A stretch of DNA of 9,195 nt from Caldilineaceae bacterium (GTDB lineage Bacteria; Chloroflexota; Anaerolineae; Caldilineales; Caldilineaceae). The stretch spans positions 1 to 9,195 of the forward strand of contig JAAUPU010000056.1 in assembly GCA_012032975.1 (NCBI GenBank). Direction: 5' to 3'. A program made the position numbers and the translations under genes. This document shows, in pieces, positions 3,038-9,195 of the stretch; the stretch's first letter is position 1, and every line of letters begins with the position of its first letter. Under the pieces are notes generated by a model. The model had not been told where the DNA came from. It searched no databases and saw only the letters and a list, made by a program, of their open reading frames with translations.

Positions 3038-4182
3038 TCAGAAACCGTAGAATTCGCGGGCGTTTTCATACATGACCCGGTCCCGATAGGCGGGTGCGAA
3101 GTCAGCCATAAAACCCTTCGGCTCGTCCCAATCCCAGTGGGGATAGTCGCTGGCGTAGAGCAGCAGCTTGTCGGCGTGGATCCACTCCATGAAGGTGTGC
3201 AGGTCGGCCTTGGTGGGGGTGTTGGGCAGCGGCTGGGTGCCAAAACGGATGTGGTCGTTGACATATTCGCTGGGCAAGCGCTTGACCCAGGGCGTGTAAT
3301 CGCGCAGCCCCTTCCAGTCACCGTCCATGTGCCAGAGCAACCCCGGCACCCAGAAGACGTCATGCTCGATAAAGAGGAAGCGGAAGCTGGGAAATTTTTC
3401 AAAAACGCCTTCGCAGATCAGGCTGACCATGTGGGCCATCGCGATCTGCGGGCGGGCCATGCGCATCTCCAGATAGTAGGATGGGTAGCCAGCCGCGGTC
3501 GGCGAGGCGGCGACGCCCGCGCCCTCCGCGCCAAAATGGACGCAGACCGGCAACCCCATCTCCTGGCAGGCCGCGTAGATGGGGTGGTAGAAGCGGTTGC
3601 CGAAAGGTACGCCGCGCGCCGGCCGGCATCATCACTTGCACAAAATCCGCCCGTTCGCCCAGCCGGTGGATCTCGGCCGCGGCCTGGATGGGGTCGGTGG
3701 GCGCGATGTGGATGGAGGCGCGGAATCGCGGGTCCGCGGTGAGCCAATGTTCCGCGGTCCAATCATTGAAGGCGCGGCAGTAGGCCGCGCCGTAGTCGGC
3801 GTCTGGATGCACAGCCGCCGCGTAGGGGCCGCCGGTCAGAATGGCAAGATCGATGTCGTACACATCGAGATGCTTTTCGATGGCCACCTGGGGCACAGGT
3901 CGCCGGGTTGACCTCCGCGCCGACCCAGAGATCATGGCGCGCGCCGTTGCCGGGGATATTCGTGTGGCCCAGGGTCGGCATCATCGAACCAAAATCCTGG
4001 ATGTGTTCGACATAGTGGCGCGGCAGGTAGGGGAAGAGCGTCTTGGGGTCGTCAAACTGGTGGTGAACATCACAGTCGATGATGCGCGTGCGCGCGGCGT
4101 TGTTCTCGGGCGTGGCTTCGTCGGGCATGGCGTCGGTGCGCGTAGCGGTCGGCACGGGCAAAGTCAGAGTGGAATCCATCAT
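3038..4182 (-). CDS. Amidohydrolase family protein (amidohydrolase-2/ACMSD-like), frame interrupted twice
   Basis: The restored length is about 380 residues. The N-terminal metal-site strand reads IIDCDVHHQF (residues 34-43). A central VHFG carries a ligand His near 215. The block FIEHDVFWVPGLLWHMD is near 271-286, and YASDYPHWDWDEP near 342-354 supplies the conserved Asp. These match the amidohydrolase-2 (PF04909-type) TIM-barrel family, which includes decarboxylases and hydrolases of aromatic-derived acids; the substrate is unknown. Two extra bases break the frame, near 3893-3905 (between VGAEVNP and PQVAIEKHLDVYD) and near 3612 (GAR joined to VPFGNRFYHPIYAA). Two tandem ATGs start the gene. 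The second (4179) has the better six-base spacing from AGGAGG (4186-4191), the first (4182) only three. It is the first gene after the promoter at 4230-4257 and is one base from the Rieske gene. Confidence 0.88.
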
Positions 4183-4860: not shown

Positions 4861-6357
4861 ATGAACATTCTGGTCGGCGAATGCAAGCAAGAGGTCTCCT
4901 CTTTCAATCCAGTTGCCAGCAGTTATGATGACTTCGTCGTGACCGCAGGCCCAGAGATTCTGGATTATCATCGCGGGCGCAACACCGAAATCGGCGGCGC
5001 GCTGACGGTTTTGAAAGCCATGAAGGCTTGGAATTGACGCCAACCTACAGCGCCCGTGCGATCACATCGGGCGGCTTGCTGGCACAGACCGATTTCCAGC
5101 GCATCGCTCGCGAATTTTTGGGTTCCGTGGGTAGTGTCGTCGCGTCAGCGACGCCGATCGATGCGGTCTATCTCTCTCTGCACGGCGCGATGGCCACCGA
5201 CCAGGAGGATGACCCCGAAGGATTTCTCATCGCCGAAATCAGGCAGATTTTGGGCGAAGAAATCCCCATCGTTGCCTCATTTGATCTCCACGGCATCGTC
5301 ACCGACCGCATCCTGCGCCATACGAATGCGATTGTCTCCTACCACACCTATCCGCACATTGACTTTGCCGACACCGGTGCACGGGCCGGCCGTCTGCTCT
5401 TGCAGATTCTTGCGGGCAAAGTGCGACCCGTGACAGCCTTTGTGCCGATCCCGGCGCTGGTACGCGGCAACGAACTGATCACGGCAACCGGTCTCTTTGG
5501 CCAAATGATCCGCAGCAGCCAGGCCATCGAAGCCAGCCCCGGCGGCCTCTCCGCCGGGATGTTCATCGGCAATCCTTTCACCGATGTGCGCGAGCTACGT
5601 TCCAACAGCTTTGTCGTGACCGACGGCGATCCTGCCCGCGCCGGAGCGCGAGCGATCGCGATGGCTGAAGATTTTGGCGCGTGCGCGAAGATCTGCAGCG
5701 CCGCTGGATCAGCCTGGACGAAGCGCTGGCAACCGCTCAAGCTGCGACCGGTGCGGTCATCCTTGTCGACGCCGCGGATGCAACCAGCTCGGGCGCATCG
5801 GGCGACAGCAACATCATCCTGCGCGGGTTGCTGAATCTTGGCTATCAAAAACGGGCGCTGCTCCCCATCGTGGATCCAGATGCCGTTCAAGATGCAGTGG
5901 CCGCGGGGATTGGCGCCACTGTGACGACCACAATCGGCGGCAAGCTGGATAGCGCTCGCTTTCAGCCGGTCCCGATCACGGGTCATGTCCATCTGCTCTC
6001 GGAGGGTCACTTCATCAGCGAATCCAATGGCACCTATTGGGACTCGGGACCGACGGCCGTGATCCAGGCAGGTTCGATCACCATGTGGCCACGAGCCGTC
6101 CGGTGAGCTTGTATGACCGCTCACTCTTTTGGGCGCACGGCCAGGATCCGCACCACTTCGATGTCATCGTGGTCAAGTCGCCCCACTGCCAGCCCCACTT
6201 TTTCGACGACTGGGCTGAACAGACGATCAATGTGGATATAGCCGGATCGACCAGCGCCAACCTGCCCACGCTTGGCCATACTCGTTGCCAGCGTCCCATT
6301 TTCCCGCTGGACGCAGAAGTCGAATTCCAGCCCCGGGCACGCCTTTTTCAGCGCTAG
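4861..6357 (+). CDS. M81 family metallopeptidase (MlrC/microcystinase C-like), frame interrupted three times
   Basis: The restored protein is 499 residues, the usual size for this family, named for MlrC, which degrades linearised microcystin products; most members have unknown peptide-like substrates. It opens MNILVGECKQEVSSFNP, the counterpart of the family's 'HETNTFSP' start. Family motifs are YLSLHGAM (about 104-111), SFDLHG (140-145) and SYHTYPHIDFADTG (160-173), which supply likely metal ligands. The C-terminal domain has DSGPTAVIQAGSITM, then VVKSPHCQPHFFDDW. One base is missing at each of three places: near 5025 (MK joined to GLELTPTYSARAITSGG), 5672-5675 (AEDF joined to WRVREDLQRRW) and 6085 (ITM joined to VATSRPVSLYDRSLFWAHG). 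All lie in short homopolymers. There is no signal peptide, so it is cytoplasmic. A weak AAAGGG stands before the start. The link to the lipoprotein is positional only. Confidence 0.9.
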
Positions 6358-6748: not shown

Positions 6749-7734
6749 ATGACCTCCAACGAATTTCCTGCCAACTCAGATCTGAGCATCTGCTTCCGTC
6801 CCGATGATGGTCCTACCGTTTGGACGAACTTTTTGCCAAGCGACAAACGGGCATTGCCCATCGTCAGGCCTGGACGCCTGACGAATTGACCGAGGCCATC
6901 GCGGACGCGCATGTGTTGGTTGTCTCTGGTTTCTGGCGCAACGAACTGCTGGAGCTTGCGCCAAAGCTGAGATTTATCCAGTCCATCGGCGCGGGTTACG
7001 ACCAGTTTCCGCTGGATGAATTGCGCAGCCGTGGCATTCGCCTGGCTTCGGCTGCCGGCGTCAACCGCAATGCAGTCAGCGAACACGCGCTCGCGCTGAT
7101 GCTCGCTTTCACCCGTCAGCTCAACAGCGGGTTTGCCAATCAGCAGCAGCGGATCTGGCGCGGCATGATCGGCGACTACAACCGACGCGAGGATGAACTG
7201 GCGGGGAAAACCATGCTGCTCGTGGGACTTGGCGGCATCGGCGGGCGGATCGCCAAGCTGGCCAAGGCGTTCGACATGCACGTGGTCGCGGTCAAGCGCA
7301 ACCCTGCCACCGCGGGCGGCCCGGCGGACGAGATCTTCGCAACCGACCAGTTGACCACTCTCTTGCCGCGCGCCGATTTTTTGGTGCTTGCCTGCCCGCT
7401 CACACCCGAAACCGAAAAGCTGATCGGCGCCAAGGAATTGGCGGCCATGAAACCGACCGCATATCTTATCAATGTCGCACGCGGTGGGGTGGTCGATGAG
7501 GCTGCGCTGATCCACGCGCTGCAAGAGCAATCCATCGCCGGCGCGGGACTGGATGTCACCATCCAGGAGCCATTGCCGGCGGATTCACCGCTCTGGACAA
7601 TGGACAATGTGATCTTGACGCCGCACACCGCCGGCGAGACCCGTCGCTATGAGGAGAACGTGATCGACATACTTGTCGAGAACATTGGACGTTTGGCCGA
7701 GGGTGAAAACCCGCTGCAAAATCAGATTGTTTGA
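6749..7734 (+). CDS. D-2-hydroxyacid dehydrogenase (NAD(P)-dependent), one frame break near the N-terminus
   Basis: The restored length is 328 residues. Features seen are the N-terminal substrate-domain strand (HVLVVSGFW), the linker VNRNAVSEHALALMLAFTR, the Rossmann motif GLGGIGG (160-166) and NVARGGVVDEAAL with catalytic Arg245. IQEPLPADSPLW follows with Glu274, then LTPHTAGE with catalytic His293. The family reversibly reduces 2-keto acids to D-2-hydroxy acids. The residues after the second Rossmann strand are AVKRNP rather than an acidic residue, which suggests NADP(H) preference (inference). ATG 6749 follows AAAGGA (6735-6740) at eight bases. From it the frame runs MTSNEFPANSDLSICFRPDDGP, then a base is missing near 6812 and the rest continues as LDELFAKRQTGIAHRQAW. 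Starting at TTG 6820 instead would drop the first beta strand. It sits 108 bases after the Smr gene, with no clear promoter or terminator in the gap. Confidence 0.9.
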
Positions 7735-7770
7735 TGCGGTCGCTAATCTTACATTTCAACGCGTTGGCAA

Positions 7771-7799
7771 TTGACAAGGCTCTGCTGCTTGGATATACT
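7771..7799 (+). promoter_or_regulatory. Strong sigma70-type promoter of the ilvB leader
   Basis: TTGACA (7771-7776) is separated by exactly 17 bases from TATACT (7794-7799), one mismatch from the full consensus. The start of transcription should fall near 7806. That gives a leader of about 445 bases before ilvB: roughly 140 bases ahead of the leader peptide, then the attenuator. It begins 36 bases after the dehydrogenase stop, so the ilvB unit is independent of the upstream genes. Confidence 0.8.
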
Positions 7800-7899
7800 A
7801 TGAACCATTCTGTAGGCAACTTGACCAATCTCCACTGTGCAACATGCACCGGTCGTCTTGCGCCAGGATCGGCGCTTCGAGTGCAAACCGCAGCAAACT

Positions 7900-7917
7900 C
7901 GATCGGAAACCCGGTCG
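7900..7917 (+). other. Small hairpin in the 5' leader ahead of the leader peptide
   Basis: CGATCGG (7900-7906) pairs with CCGGTCG (7911-7917) over an AAAC loop, seven pairs including one G-U, and is followed by GCTTTTG. The T-run is only four bases, so it is a weak terminator at best. It may be a pause or structural element of the long 5' leader. The remainder of 7807-7936 shows no convincing gene. Confidence 0.4.
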
Positions 7918-7949
7918 GCTTTTGAAAAAGCGAACCAAGGCAGCCCAAC

Positions 7950-8057
7950 ATGAATGCCAGTTTTCTCTCCAGCCTAGAGCTTATTATCATCGTACTTAGC
8001 GAGCTTCTGGTCGTAGTACTCGGCGACCAAGAGCCGATGCTGGTTGGAGAAGCATAG
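7950..8057 (+). CDS. ilvB leader peptide (branched-chain amino acid attenuator peptide)
   Basis: This is a 35-codon ORF, too short for routine gene callers. ATG 7950 is preceded by AAGG (7937-7940) at nine bases, and TAG 8055-8057 ends it. The peptide core is LELIIIVLSELLVVVLG (residues 9-25). Sixteen of 35 residues are Leu, Ile or Val, including 12 of the 14 at positions 11-24. Codons look chosen for sensitivity: GTA is used for three of five valines and CTT/CTA for four of eight leucines. In the visible 314 codons of ilvB I find only one GTA. Such peptides regulate in cis: shortage of charged Leu-, Ile- or Val-tRNA stalls the ribosome on these codons and lets the downstream antiterminator form. 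The ORF ends 35 bases before the terminator stem and about 195 bases before ilvB. Although hydrophobic, it is unlikely to act as a membrane protein. Confidence 0.9.
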   Translation: MNASFLSSLELIIIVLSELLVVVLGDQEPMLVGEA

Positions 8058-8119
8058 GGAAAGCACCTTCCCTTGCCGCAGGTCATTGTAGACCCTTCCC
8101 AACCGGGAAGGGTTTTTTT
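8004..8119 (+). promoter_or_regulatory. Ribosome-mediated transcription attenuator of ilvB
   Basis: Competing structures can be drawn by hand. Antiterminator: GGTTGG-A-GAAG (8042-8052) pairs with CTTCCCAACC (8095-8104), ten pairs with one bulged A. It consumes six bases of the terminator 5' arm and its whole loop. Pause or protector: TGGTCG (8008-8013) pairs with CGACCA (8024-8029), extendable by three pairs past one mismatch. Alternatively CTTCT (8004-8008) pairs with AGAAG (8048-8052), hiding the antiterminator strand. The antiterminator strand overlaps leader codons 31-35, so a ribosome at the TAG would mask it and allow termination, whereas one stalled on the Leu/Ile/Val codons would leave it free. 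A further hairpin, AGGGAA/TTCCCT (8056-8073), is compatible with the terminator. Folding energies were not computed. Confidence 0.82.
8093..8119 (+). terminator. Rho-independent terminator of the attenuator
   Basis: CCCTTCCC (8093-8100), loop AACC, GGGAAGGG (8105-8112), then seven T's (8113-8119). The stem is a perfect eight pairs and can be extended by A8092-T8113. It lies inside the transcription unit, before ilvB, so it must be conditional for ilvB to be expressed from the upstream promoter. Confidence 0.95.
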
Positions 8120-8251
8120 GTACATAGCGTTGGCGGGTATTGCCCGTGCAAGCGGCAACATTCGCCTGGCGCCGTTTTGTGGACCAGCTACCGAATGATC
8201 CCGTTCAATCGCATGAAAATCGCATGTAAAAACATGTAAGGAGTGCTTACG

Positions 8252-9195
<944 letters not shown>

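Follow-up and report, generated by a model that had tools for sequence, protein, structure and literature searches.

One question raised by the end of this stretch of DNA, the whole of which (9,195 nucleotides of a Caldilineaceae genome) is called the window here, is how the expression of the acetolactate synthase gene ilvB might be controlled by the sequence in front of it. Leader-peptide attenuation of ilv genes is a classical mechanism, and in the E. coli ilvBN, ilvGMEDA and leu attenuators, as here, the control codons are followed by the antiterminator and then by the terminator, with the position of the ribosome deciding between the two structures. In the window, the region 7771-8251 lies between a D-2-hydroxyacid dehydrogenase gene (6820-7734) and ilvB (8252 onward), and contains in sequence a promoter, a leader ORF, an antiterminator strand and a terminator (Table 1). 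From this layout, and from its conservation in relatives, we conclude that the element is very probably a ribosome-mediated transcription attenuator of ilvB.

Table 1. Features of the ilvB upstream region, in window coordinates; RNA structures and the leader are predictions.
Feature	Position	Strand	Details
Sigma70-type promoter, TTGACA-17-TATACT	7771..7799	+	11/12 consensus; -35 box TTGACA 7771-7776, 17-base spacer, -10 box TATACT 7794-7799
Leader peptide ORF, MNASFLSSLELIIIVLSELLVVVLGDQEPMLVGEA	7950..8057	+	ATG to TAG, 35 codons; leaders also in relatives
Control codons, run 1	7980..7997	+	Leu Ile Ile Ile Val Leu (LIIIVL)
Control codons, run 2	8004..8021	+	Leu Leu Val Val Val Leu (LLVVVL)
Hairpin A	8000..8036	+	within the ORF, across the second codon run; -18.1 kcal/mol in the window
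Antiterminator strand, 5', GGUUGGAGAAG	8042..8052	+	also the final leader codons
Hairpin C	8052..8076	+	inside the antiterminator, around the leader stop codon; sequence variable
Hairpin B, GGUC-AUUGUA-GACC	8081..8094	+	inside the antiterminator; 3' side doubles as terminator base
Antiterminator strand, 3', CUUCCCAACC	8095..8104	+	common to terminator 5' arm and loop
Intrinsic terminator	8090..8119	+	stem of 8-11 pairs, then seven T
ilvB, acetolactate synthase large subunit	8252..9195	+	TIGR00118; Pfam TPP_enzyme_N, _M; cut at the window end

A sequence-only reading of the window had described a near-perfect promoter, a 35-codon ORF packed with Leu/Ile/Val codons, a ten-pair antiterminator overlapping the end of that ORF and a perfect terminator with seven T's, and all four parts, along with the coordinates given for them, withstood closer analysis. 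The promoter departs from consensus at a single position, and a scan of 7600-8300 returned this one site, with a mean of 0.4 in shuffles. As would be expected of a leader-peptide attenuator, the predicted ORF carries a run of codons for the end products of the pathway: its densest 14-residue segment holds 12 Leu/Ile/Val, whereas among 2000 dinucleotide shuffles of 7735-8251 none reached 11 of 14 or more, one reached 10 and 26 reached 9. The antiterminator joins 8042-8047 and 8049-8052 to 8095-8104 in ten pairs, with A8048 unpaired, and its duplex energy (-18.1) was equalled by 12 of 2000 strand shuffles. Between the ORF and ilvB, the predicted intrinsic terminator forms eight perfect pairs (8093-8100/8105-8112), extended to 11 (8090-8115), followed by seven T's (8113-8119), the first of which take part in the pairing at the foot of the stem. 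A second terminator-like site lies on the minus strand (7973-7956) and 0.9 sites are expected by chance, so the terminator scan alone is no proof. The ilvB gene starts at ATG 8252, preceded by GGAG at 8240-8243, and matches TIGR00118 with E 8.4e-127 and 423.9 bits, a score under the whole-protein cut-off because the window ends within the gene. Further upstream, an M81 peptidase (DUF1485, then MlrC_C; 5028-6106, plus strand) and an amidohydrolase (3038-4182, minus strand) are each split over more than one reading frame, and represent either frameshifted genes or sequencing errors.

In a collection with one genome per species, the best 33 of 80 ilvB matches were 78-87% identical and came from metagenome-assembled genomes labelled Caldilineaceae, Litorilinea, Anaerolineae or Chloroflexi/Chloroflexota, in line with the Chloroflexota-like host suspected earlier. 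A close group of 42 loci (L001-L041 and L050) was retained from these 80, the other 38 lying outside it. Within 700 bases upstream of ilvB, an ORF with at least 9 Leu/Ile/Val in 14 residues was called by automatic threshold in 35 of the 42 loci; leaders are sparser in L025 and L050 and less dense, as seen by eye, in L034-L037, and none was made out in L040, where the helix is also within chance (68/500 shuffles). A related terminator occurs in the window and in all of L001-L041. Two alignments (A1 and A2) were built with 38 rows, namely the window, L001-L033, L038, L039, L041 and L050, omitting L034-L037 and L040 as too diverged.

One of these loci (L007), in a genome that would belong to the order Caldilineales, has ilvB, ilvN, ilvC and leuA behind the element. 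Across the 46 genomes of this order, a covariance model of the antiterminator (R1) found one copy each in 40. Thirty of these copies were checked and have ilvB directly downstream, with the terminator pattern unmatched in two (L106 and L110); nine further copies are loci L001, L003, L010, L011, L012, L021, L024, L028 and L041, and the copy in G053 lies 612 bases before the matched part of an ilvB whose N-terminal part was not found. In G020, G021, G031 and G032 a diverged version of the terminator or element precedes ilvB; in G046 and G051, TIGR00118 gave no hit at 1e-120. Relatives with an intact ilvB and no leader or terminator, which the sequence-only reading had said would speak against it, were looked for; the element or a diverged version is present in 44 of the 44 genomes of the order with a detectable ilvB, so none with the gene and without the element was found.

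The promoter is less constant. Over the 38 family rows, window included, plus L034-L037, a site with at least 9 of 12 consensus bases lies 60-330 bases before the antiterminator strand in 26 of 42 loci and is absent from 16, which include most of the L019-L032 group, against 2 of 42 control stretches inside ilvB. In L010 and L034-L037, 5-6 bases separate the end of the -10 box from the ATG of the leader; translation from leaderless transcripts might therefore occur at these ORFs.

How the RNA folds was modelled at the moment when the terminator loop has just been made. At this point GGUUGG.GAAG is predicted to pair with CUUC.CCAACC, enclosing hairpins C and B, and judged by eye all 38 loci have the GGUUGG-CCAACC helix in their minimum-energy fold, with hairpin B as drawn in 34 (the exceptions being L008, L014, L016 and L018). 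In these models, then, two hairpins usually lie within the antiterminator, which takes up the terminator loop as well. Capture of the loop together with the 5' arm would explain why the loop sequence AACC is conserved, and the variants AGCC, GACC and AACU within the family keep the pairing through G-U. Hairpin B is paired in 100% of cells, with three of its four pairs invariant. In its six-base loop (8085-8090) an A and a G are kept in at least 90% of rows, and no helix accounts for them.

The other hairpins are less uniform. Hairpin A has a family mean z of -2.9, falling to about 0 in L039 and -0.45 in L020; its main helix is paired in 73% of cells and shows compensatory changes (U-A/C-G, A-U/G-C and C-G/U-A), and it may serve in pausing or synchronisation. 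Hairpin C averages z -2.1 in the family, with -1.1 in the window alone (27/200 shuffles) and values above 0 in L016 and L021; significance is not reached in every locus. A protector hairpin 1:2 was also considered and is not supported, its mean z over 38 loci being -0.69 versus -0.33 on the reversed strand; the window alone offers a nine-pair candidate early in the ORF, UCUCCAGCC, matched by 17 of 200 shuffles.

Conservation of the antiterminator, for which the sequence-only reading had asked for covarying pairs, was assessed at two distances. Over the 37 distinct rows of the close family, 98.4% of cells in the helix are paired and all standard departures are one-sided G-U changes; in this strict family the strand hardly varies. 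RNAalifold applied to A2 missed the alternative helix; what it recovered was the terminator, together with a short helix (45-48/55-58). Taking all helices together, 85.7% of cells are paired, above all 500 shuffles and against at most 61.1% in slid versions; cells changed on both sides number 41 versus 23.6 in shuffles and the covariation score also exceeds them, whereas two of the five change measures do not (both-side-changed pairs, 7 versus 6.8; pair types, 23 versus 25.5). The both-side changes of the close family are located in hairpin A. In L034 and L036, two loci found through ilvB alone, the antiterminator pairing was equalled by 3 and 5 of 500 shuffles.

A search of 298 genomes of the class gave a match at E 0.001 in 50, at 52 places, of which 16 were strong and 36 weaker; in this search, as in that of the order, the filters were the stricter ones applied to sets of more than 40 genomes, under which weak matches are lost. 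All 36 diverged copies have a Leu/Ile/Val-rich ORF (10-13 of 14) over the match or just before it. Their own strands pair with a mean of -17.2 kcal/mol versus -15.2 (sd 0.38) when partners are permuted, and 0 of 2000 permutations were as good, in a test that leans towards pairing because the copies were found with a covariance model holding the helix, and that is further limited by their relatedness to each other. Both sides of the helix have changed in some of them: GGUUGG/CCAACC becomes CGUUUGG/CCAAACG in L203 and L211, CAGUUGG/CCAACUG in L207 and, by eye, UGUUUAGGA/UCCUAAACA in L231. A control with 21 leader-plus-terminator loci chosen without the model gave -15.7 versus -14.4 (sd 0.52), reached by 14 of 2000 permutations; five of them (L154, L157, L168, L171 and L184, of which L157 is the same place as diverged copy L211) beat 95% of 300 shuffles and the other 16 do not. 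This control weakens the evidence for pairing outside the class. Taken together, the data point to an alternative antiterminator that shares a strand with the terminator and is kept across relatives.

The near-invariance in sequence of hairpin B and the terminator would also suit a metabolite-sensing riboswitch, responding for example to ppGpp or a branched-chain amino acid through hairpin B and the junction, with the ORF incidental; ilvB is indeed under ppGpp riboswitches in some bacteria, according to the available portion of PMC10272879. Such invariance can equally be explained by every base serving two helices, and a riboswitch leaves the Leu/Ile/Val runs and the codon bias described below with no role. 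Searches with Rfam 15 at the gathering score gave no match in the window (best E 0.33 at a relaxed threshold), no family at threshold in eight Chloroflexota relatives (L001, L024, L034, L040, L042, L044, L056 and L061) and none in 20 diverged loci, and the T-box model RF00230 has no match in the window. We regard a riboswitch as very unlikely.

For the preferred attenuator, the following course of events is proposed. Transcription would start behind the promoter, and a ribosome would translate the leader. When charged tRNA for Leu, Ile or Val runs short, the ribosome is expected to stall in the codon runs. The front edge of a ribosome lies about 12 bases ahead, and in this case it would end short of 8042 and leave the strand 8042-8052 free. 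As 8095-8104 emerges, the free strand would pair with it, enclosing hairpins B and C. The terminator would thereby lose its 5' arm and its loop, and RNA polymerase would read on into ilvB. With plentiful amino acids, the ribosome would reach the stop codon at 8055 and cover 8042-8052, and the terminator would form. Stalling, termination and the amino-acid response are what we infer from the sequence and its folding.

A nascent-RNA model is partly consistent with this scheme. With free RNA from four bases before the strand, as for a ribosome stalled in the codon runs, the antiterminator has a mean probability of 0.72 (0.43-0.87; 38 loci), against 0.05 with a ribosome on the stop codon (0.06-0.34 in the loci with an early stop, discussed below) and 0.40 with no ribosome. 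In the window, the antiterminator wins with free RNA from 8030 (8030-8125) and loses from 8038. The window and those loci with 13-16 bases between strand and stop fit the ribosome-coverage model; several relatives, in which this distance is 25-31 bases, fit it only in part, as a ribosome on the stop codon would leave some of the strand uncovered. A switch at equilibrium was considered and rejected: complete transcripts mostly favour the terminator in every ribosome state modelled (means 0.99), so the switch would have to be kinetic, set while RNA polymerase moves. The claim that the locus has the architecture of the enterobacterial ilv attenuators thus holds for the kind and order of the parts, but not for the fold, since here the antiterminator encloses hairpins and pairs with the terminator loop and no 1:2 protector is conserved, which differs from the E. 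coli ilv and leu attenuators; nor does equilibrium folding explain the switch. Attenuation requires a ribosome close behind RNA polymerase, as established for E. coli systems, so the element would imply closely coupled transcription and translation in Chloroflexota and would make this coupling testable there.

Eleven loci (L019, L020, L022, L023, L025, L026, L029, L030, L031, L038 and L050) have a leader TGA just before the antiterminator strand, which places the strand outside the translated leader frame. The strand is nevertheless 98.6% identical among them, and hairpin B with the terminator 95.6%, versus 76.5% for the spacer behind the strand and 59.5% for third codon positions of ilvB. Since the strand is kept even where it is untranslated, the VGE with which the other leaders end is most simply seen as following from the RNA. 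These loci bear directly on the idea that the ORF encodes a small hydrophobic protein with a function of its own, the terminator merely tuning ilvB. By eye, the peptides are hydrophobic enough for a membrane segment, but they differ in N-terminus and length, the C-terminal VGE part is missing from 11 loci, the C-terminal motif tracks an RNA strand that is kept even when untranslated, and the leader prefers codons that are rare in ilvB; we consider a functional protein extremely unlikely.

Codon choice distinguishes the leaders from the gene that follows. Over 38 loci, GTA makes up 110 of 210 Val codons in the leaders versus 156 of 2168 in ilvB, and CTT 165 of 303 Leu codons versus 143 of 1936, and in 38 of 38 loci both have a higher frequency over the 35 codons that precede the leader stop than they have in ilvB. 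Computed p-values for this bias overstate the evidence because the loci are related. The preference is also seen in fourteen leaders of a wider phylum sample (CTT 70/157, GTA 32/80) and is weaker in the diverged class set (CTT 82/261, GTA 30/173). The same two codons, CUU and GUA, are the control codons of C. glutamicum ilvBNC in the accessible part of PMC11857589. The bias predicts which tRNA isoacceptors sense starvation: if the attenuator operates as proposed, CUU and GUA would mark the tRNA species that lose their charge first.

Substitution of possible regulatory codons before S. coelicolor ilvB had no effect (PMC1262725, as far as its available text goes), so that layout alone is no proof of mechanism. 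An attenuator of the sort suspected there, acting mainly through translation or Rho or sensing by something other than the codon runs, is extremely unlikely here, given the strong terminator with its T run in the window and L001-L041 and an antiterminator backed by the pairing tests.

Beyond ilvB itself, the attenuator appears to have been put to wider use. Of the diverged copies, 22 of 36 have ilvB downstream, and nine (L205, L208, L218, L220, L224 and L227-L230) precede ilvD, encoding dihydroxy-acid dehydratase; use of the element is therefore not confined to a single gene. Five have neither gene called downstream (L196, L212, L214, L219 and L223). In L214 (genome G387) and L219 (G362) the copy precedes a short protein, of 138 and 148 amino acids, that has no Pfam match and by eye resembles the end of an aminotransferase, and both genomes hold a second copy before ilvD; the copies in L196 and L212 are followed by similar small ORFs (FWVDEEEW, FWLDEEEW). 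Weak matches to the model (E 0.05-0.8) also lie before ilvB in the Anaerolineae-like loci L042, L043, L044, L047, L053 and L056.

Similar systems have been described in Actinobacteria. The Corynebacterium ilvB-II motif or ilvBNC attenuator likewise has a Leu/Ile/Val leader before ilvB and an overlapping terminator and antiterminator (PMC10272879, PMC11857589, in the portions available); its first hairpin is described in PMC11857589 as an anti-antiterminator blocking the antiterminator, whereas no such pairing is supported across the Chloroflexota family. Candidate ilvB leaders of Corynebacterium, Mycobacterium and Streptomyces share the Leu/Ile/Val ORF and the terminator, but in the available text of PMC1262725 these ORFs overlap the terminators and the mode of regulation is left open, while the stop codon here lies 35 bases before the terminator. 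Narunsky et al. (PMC10272879) argue for uORF attenuation of ilvB being common; Chloroflexi are not named in the main text, and the ilvB-OMG motif reported there, with 41 representatives in 'various bacterial phyla', may overlap with the Chloroflexota loci. In the portions available, the one mention of Chloroflexi in PMC9413887 is in a reference, PMC4833913 names them just as a group for which few genomes exist, and PMC2965389 has no mention of them under the terms tried. A literature search found no Chloroflexota attenuator among the titles listed; the 2010 survey by Lopatovskaya et al., to which PMC4833913 and PMC10272879 refer, was outside its coverage, and we therefore make no claim of priority.

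Comparison thus gives good support to a new RNA family within a known mechanism. Specifically, these loci probably make up an undescribed family of one Chloroflexota class: a leader-peptide attenuator before ilvB and ilvD, with an antiterminator that encloses two hairpins and captures the terminator loop, with a leader C-terminus (VGE, VGR or FGR) that is a by-product of the RNA strand, and with one lineage that moved the stop codon ahead of the strand and kept the strand. With it, a mechanism known from textbooks would reach a deep phylum, most of it uncultured, in a version that the Rfam models did not detect.

How far attenuation of this kind reaches across the phylum was surveyed in 80 ilvB upstream regions from 78 genomes (three from G134; L120 is cut by its contig), about every second of some 150 places among the matches listed, in which at least 241 of 301 genomes were matched. 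A leader with at least 9 of 14 Leu/Ile/Val and a terminator behind it occur in 19 of the 80 regions, and in 21 with at least 8 of 14, compared with none of 400 shuffles at the 8-of-14 threshold and none of 80 reverse strands at the 9-of-14 threshold. In two of these regions, L168 and L171, found without the covariance model, the leader ends SPFRMA.CQA and the strand CGUUUAGGA matches the terminator loop UCCUAAACG; the layout is the same and the sequence different. Beyond the order, the upstream comparison suggested by the sequence-only reading gives a mixed picture, with a leader and terminator in 19 of the 80 regions and T-boxes in some others. Of 40 ilvB upstream regions from this sample, 39 of them without a leader call, nine match the T-box model RF00230 (L119, L131, L143, L158, L163, L165, L172, L177 and L178). 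These T-box leaders serve the same gene in the same phylum, and differ in sensing uncharged tRNA rather than a slowed ribosome and in having no leader peptide. Chloroflexota therefore seem to use two different tRNA-sensing switches at ilvB. Two Dehalococcoides genomes are reported, in the available portion of PMC2494555, to carry T-boxes upstream of ile tRNA ligase and of trp genes. Outside this sample, Leu/Ile/Val-rich short ORFs (9-12 of 14) also precede ilvB in L065, L066, L072, L074, L077 and L078, from metagenome-assembled genomes labelled Armatimonadetes or Fimbriimonas-like.
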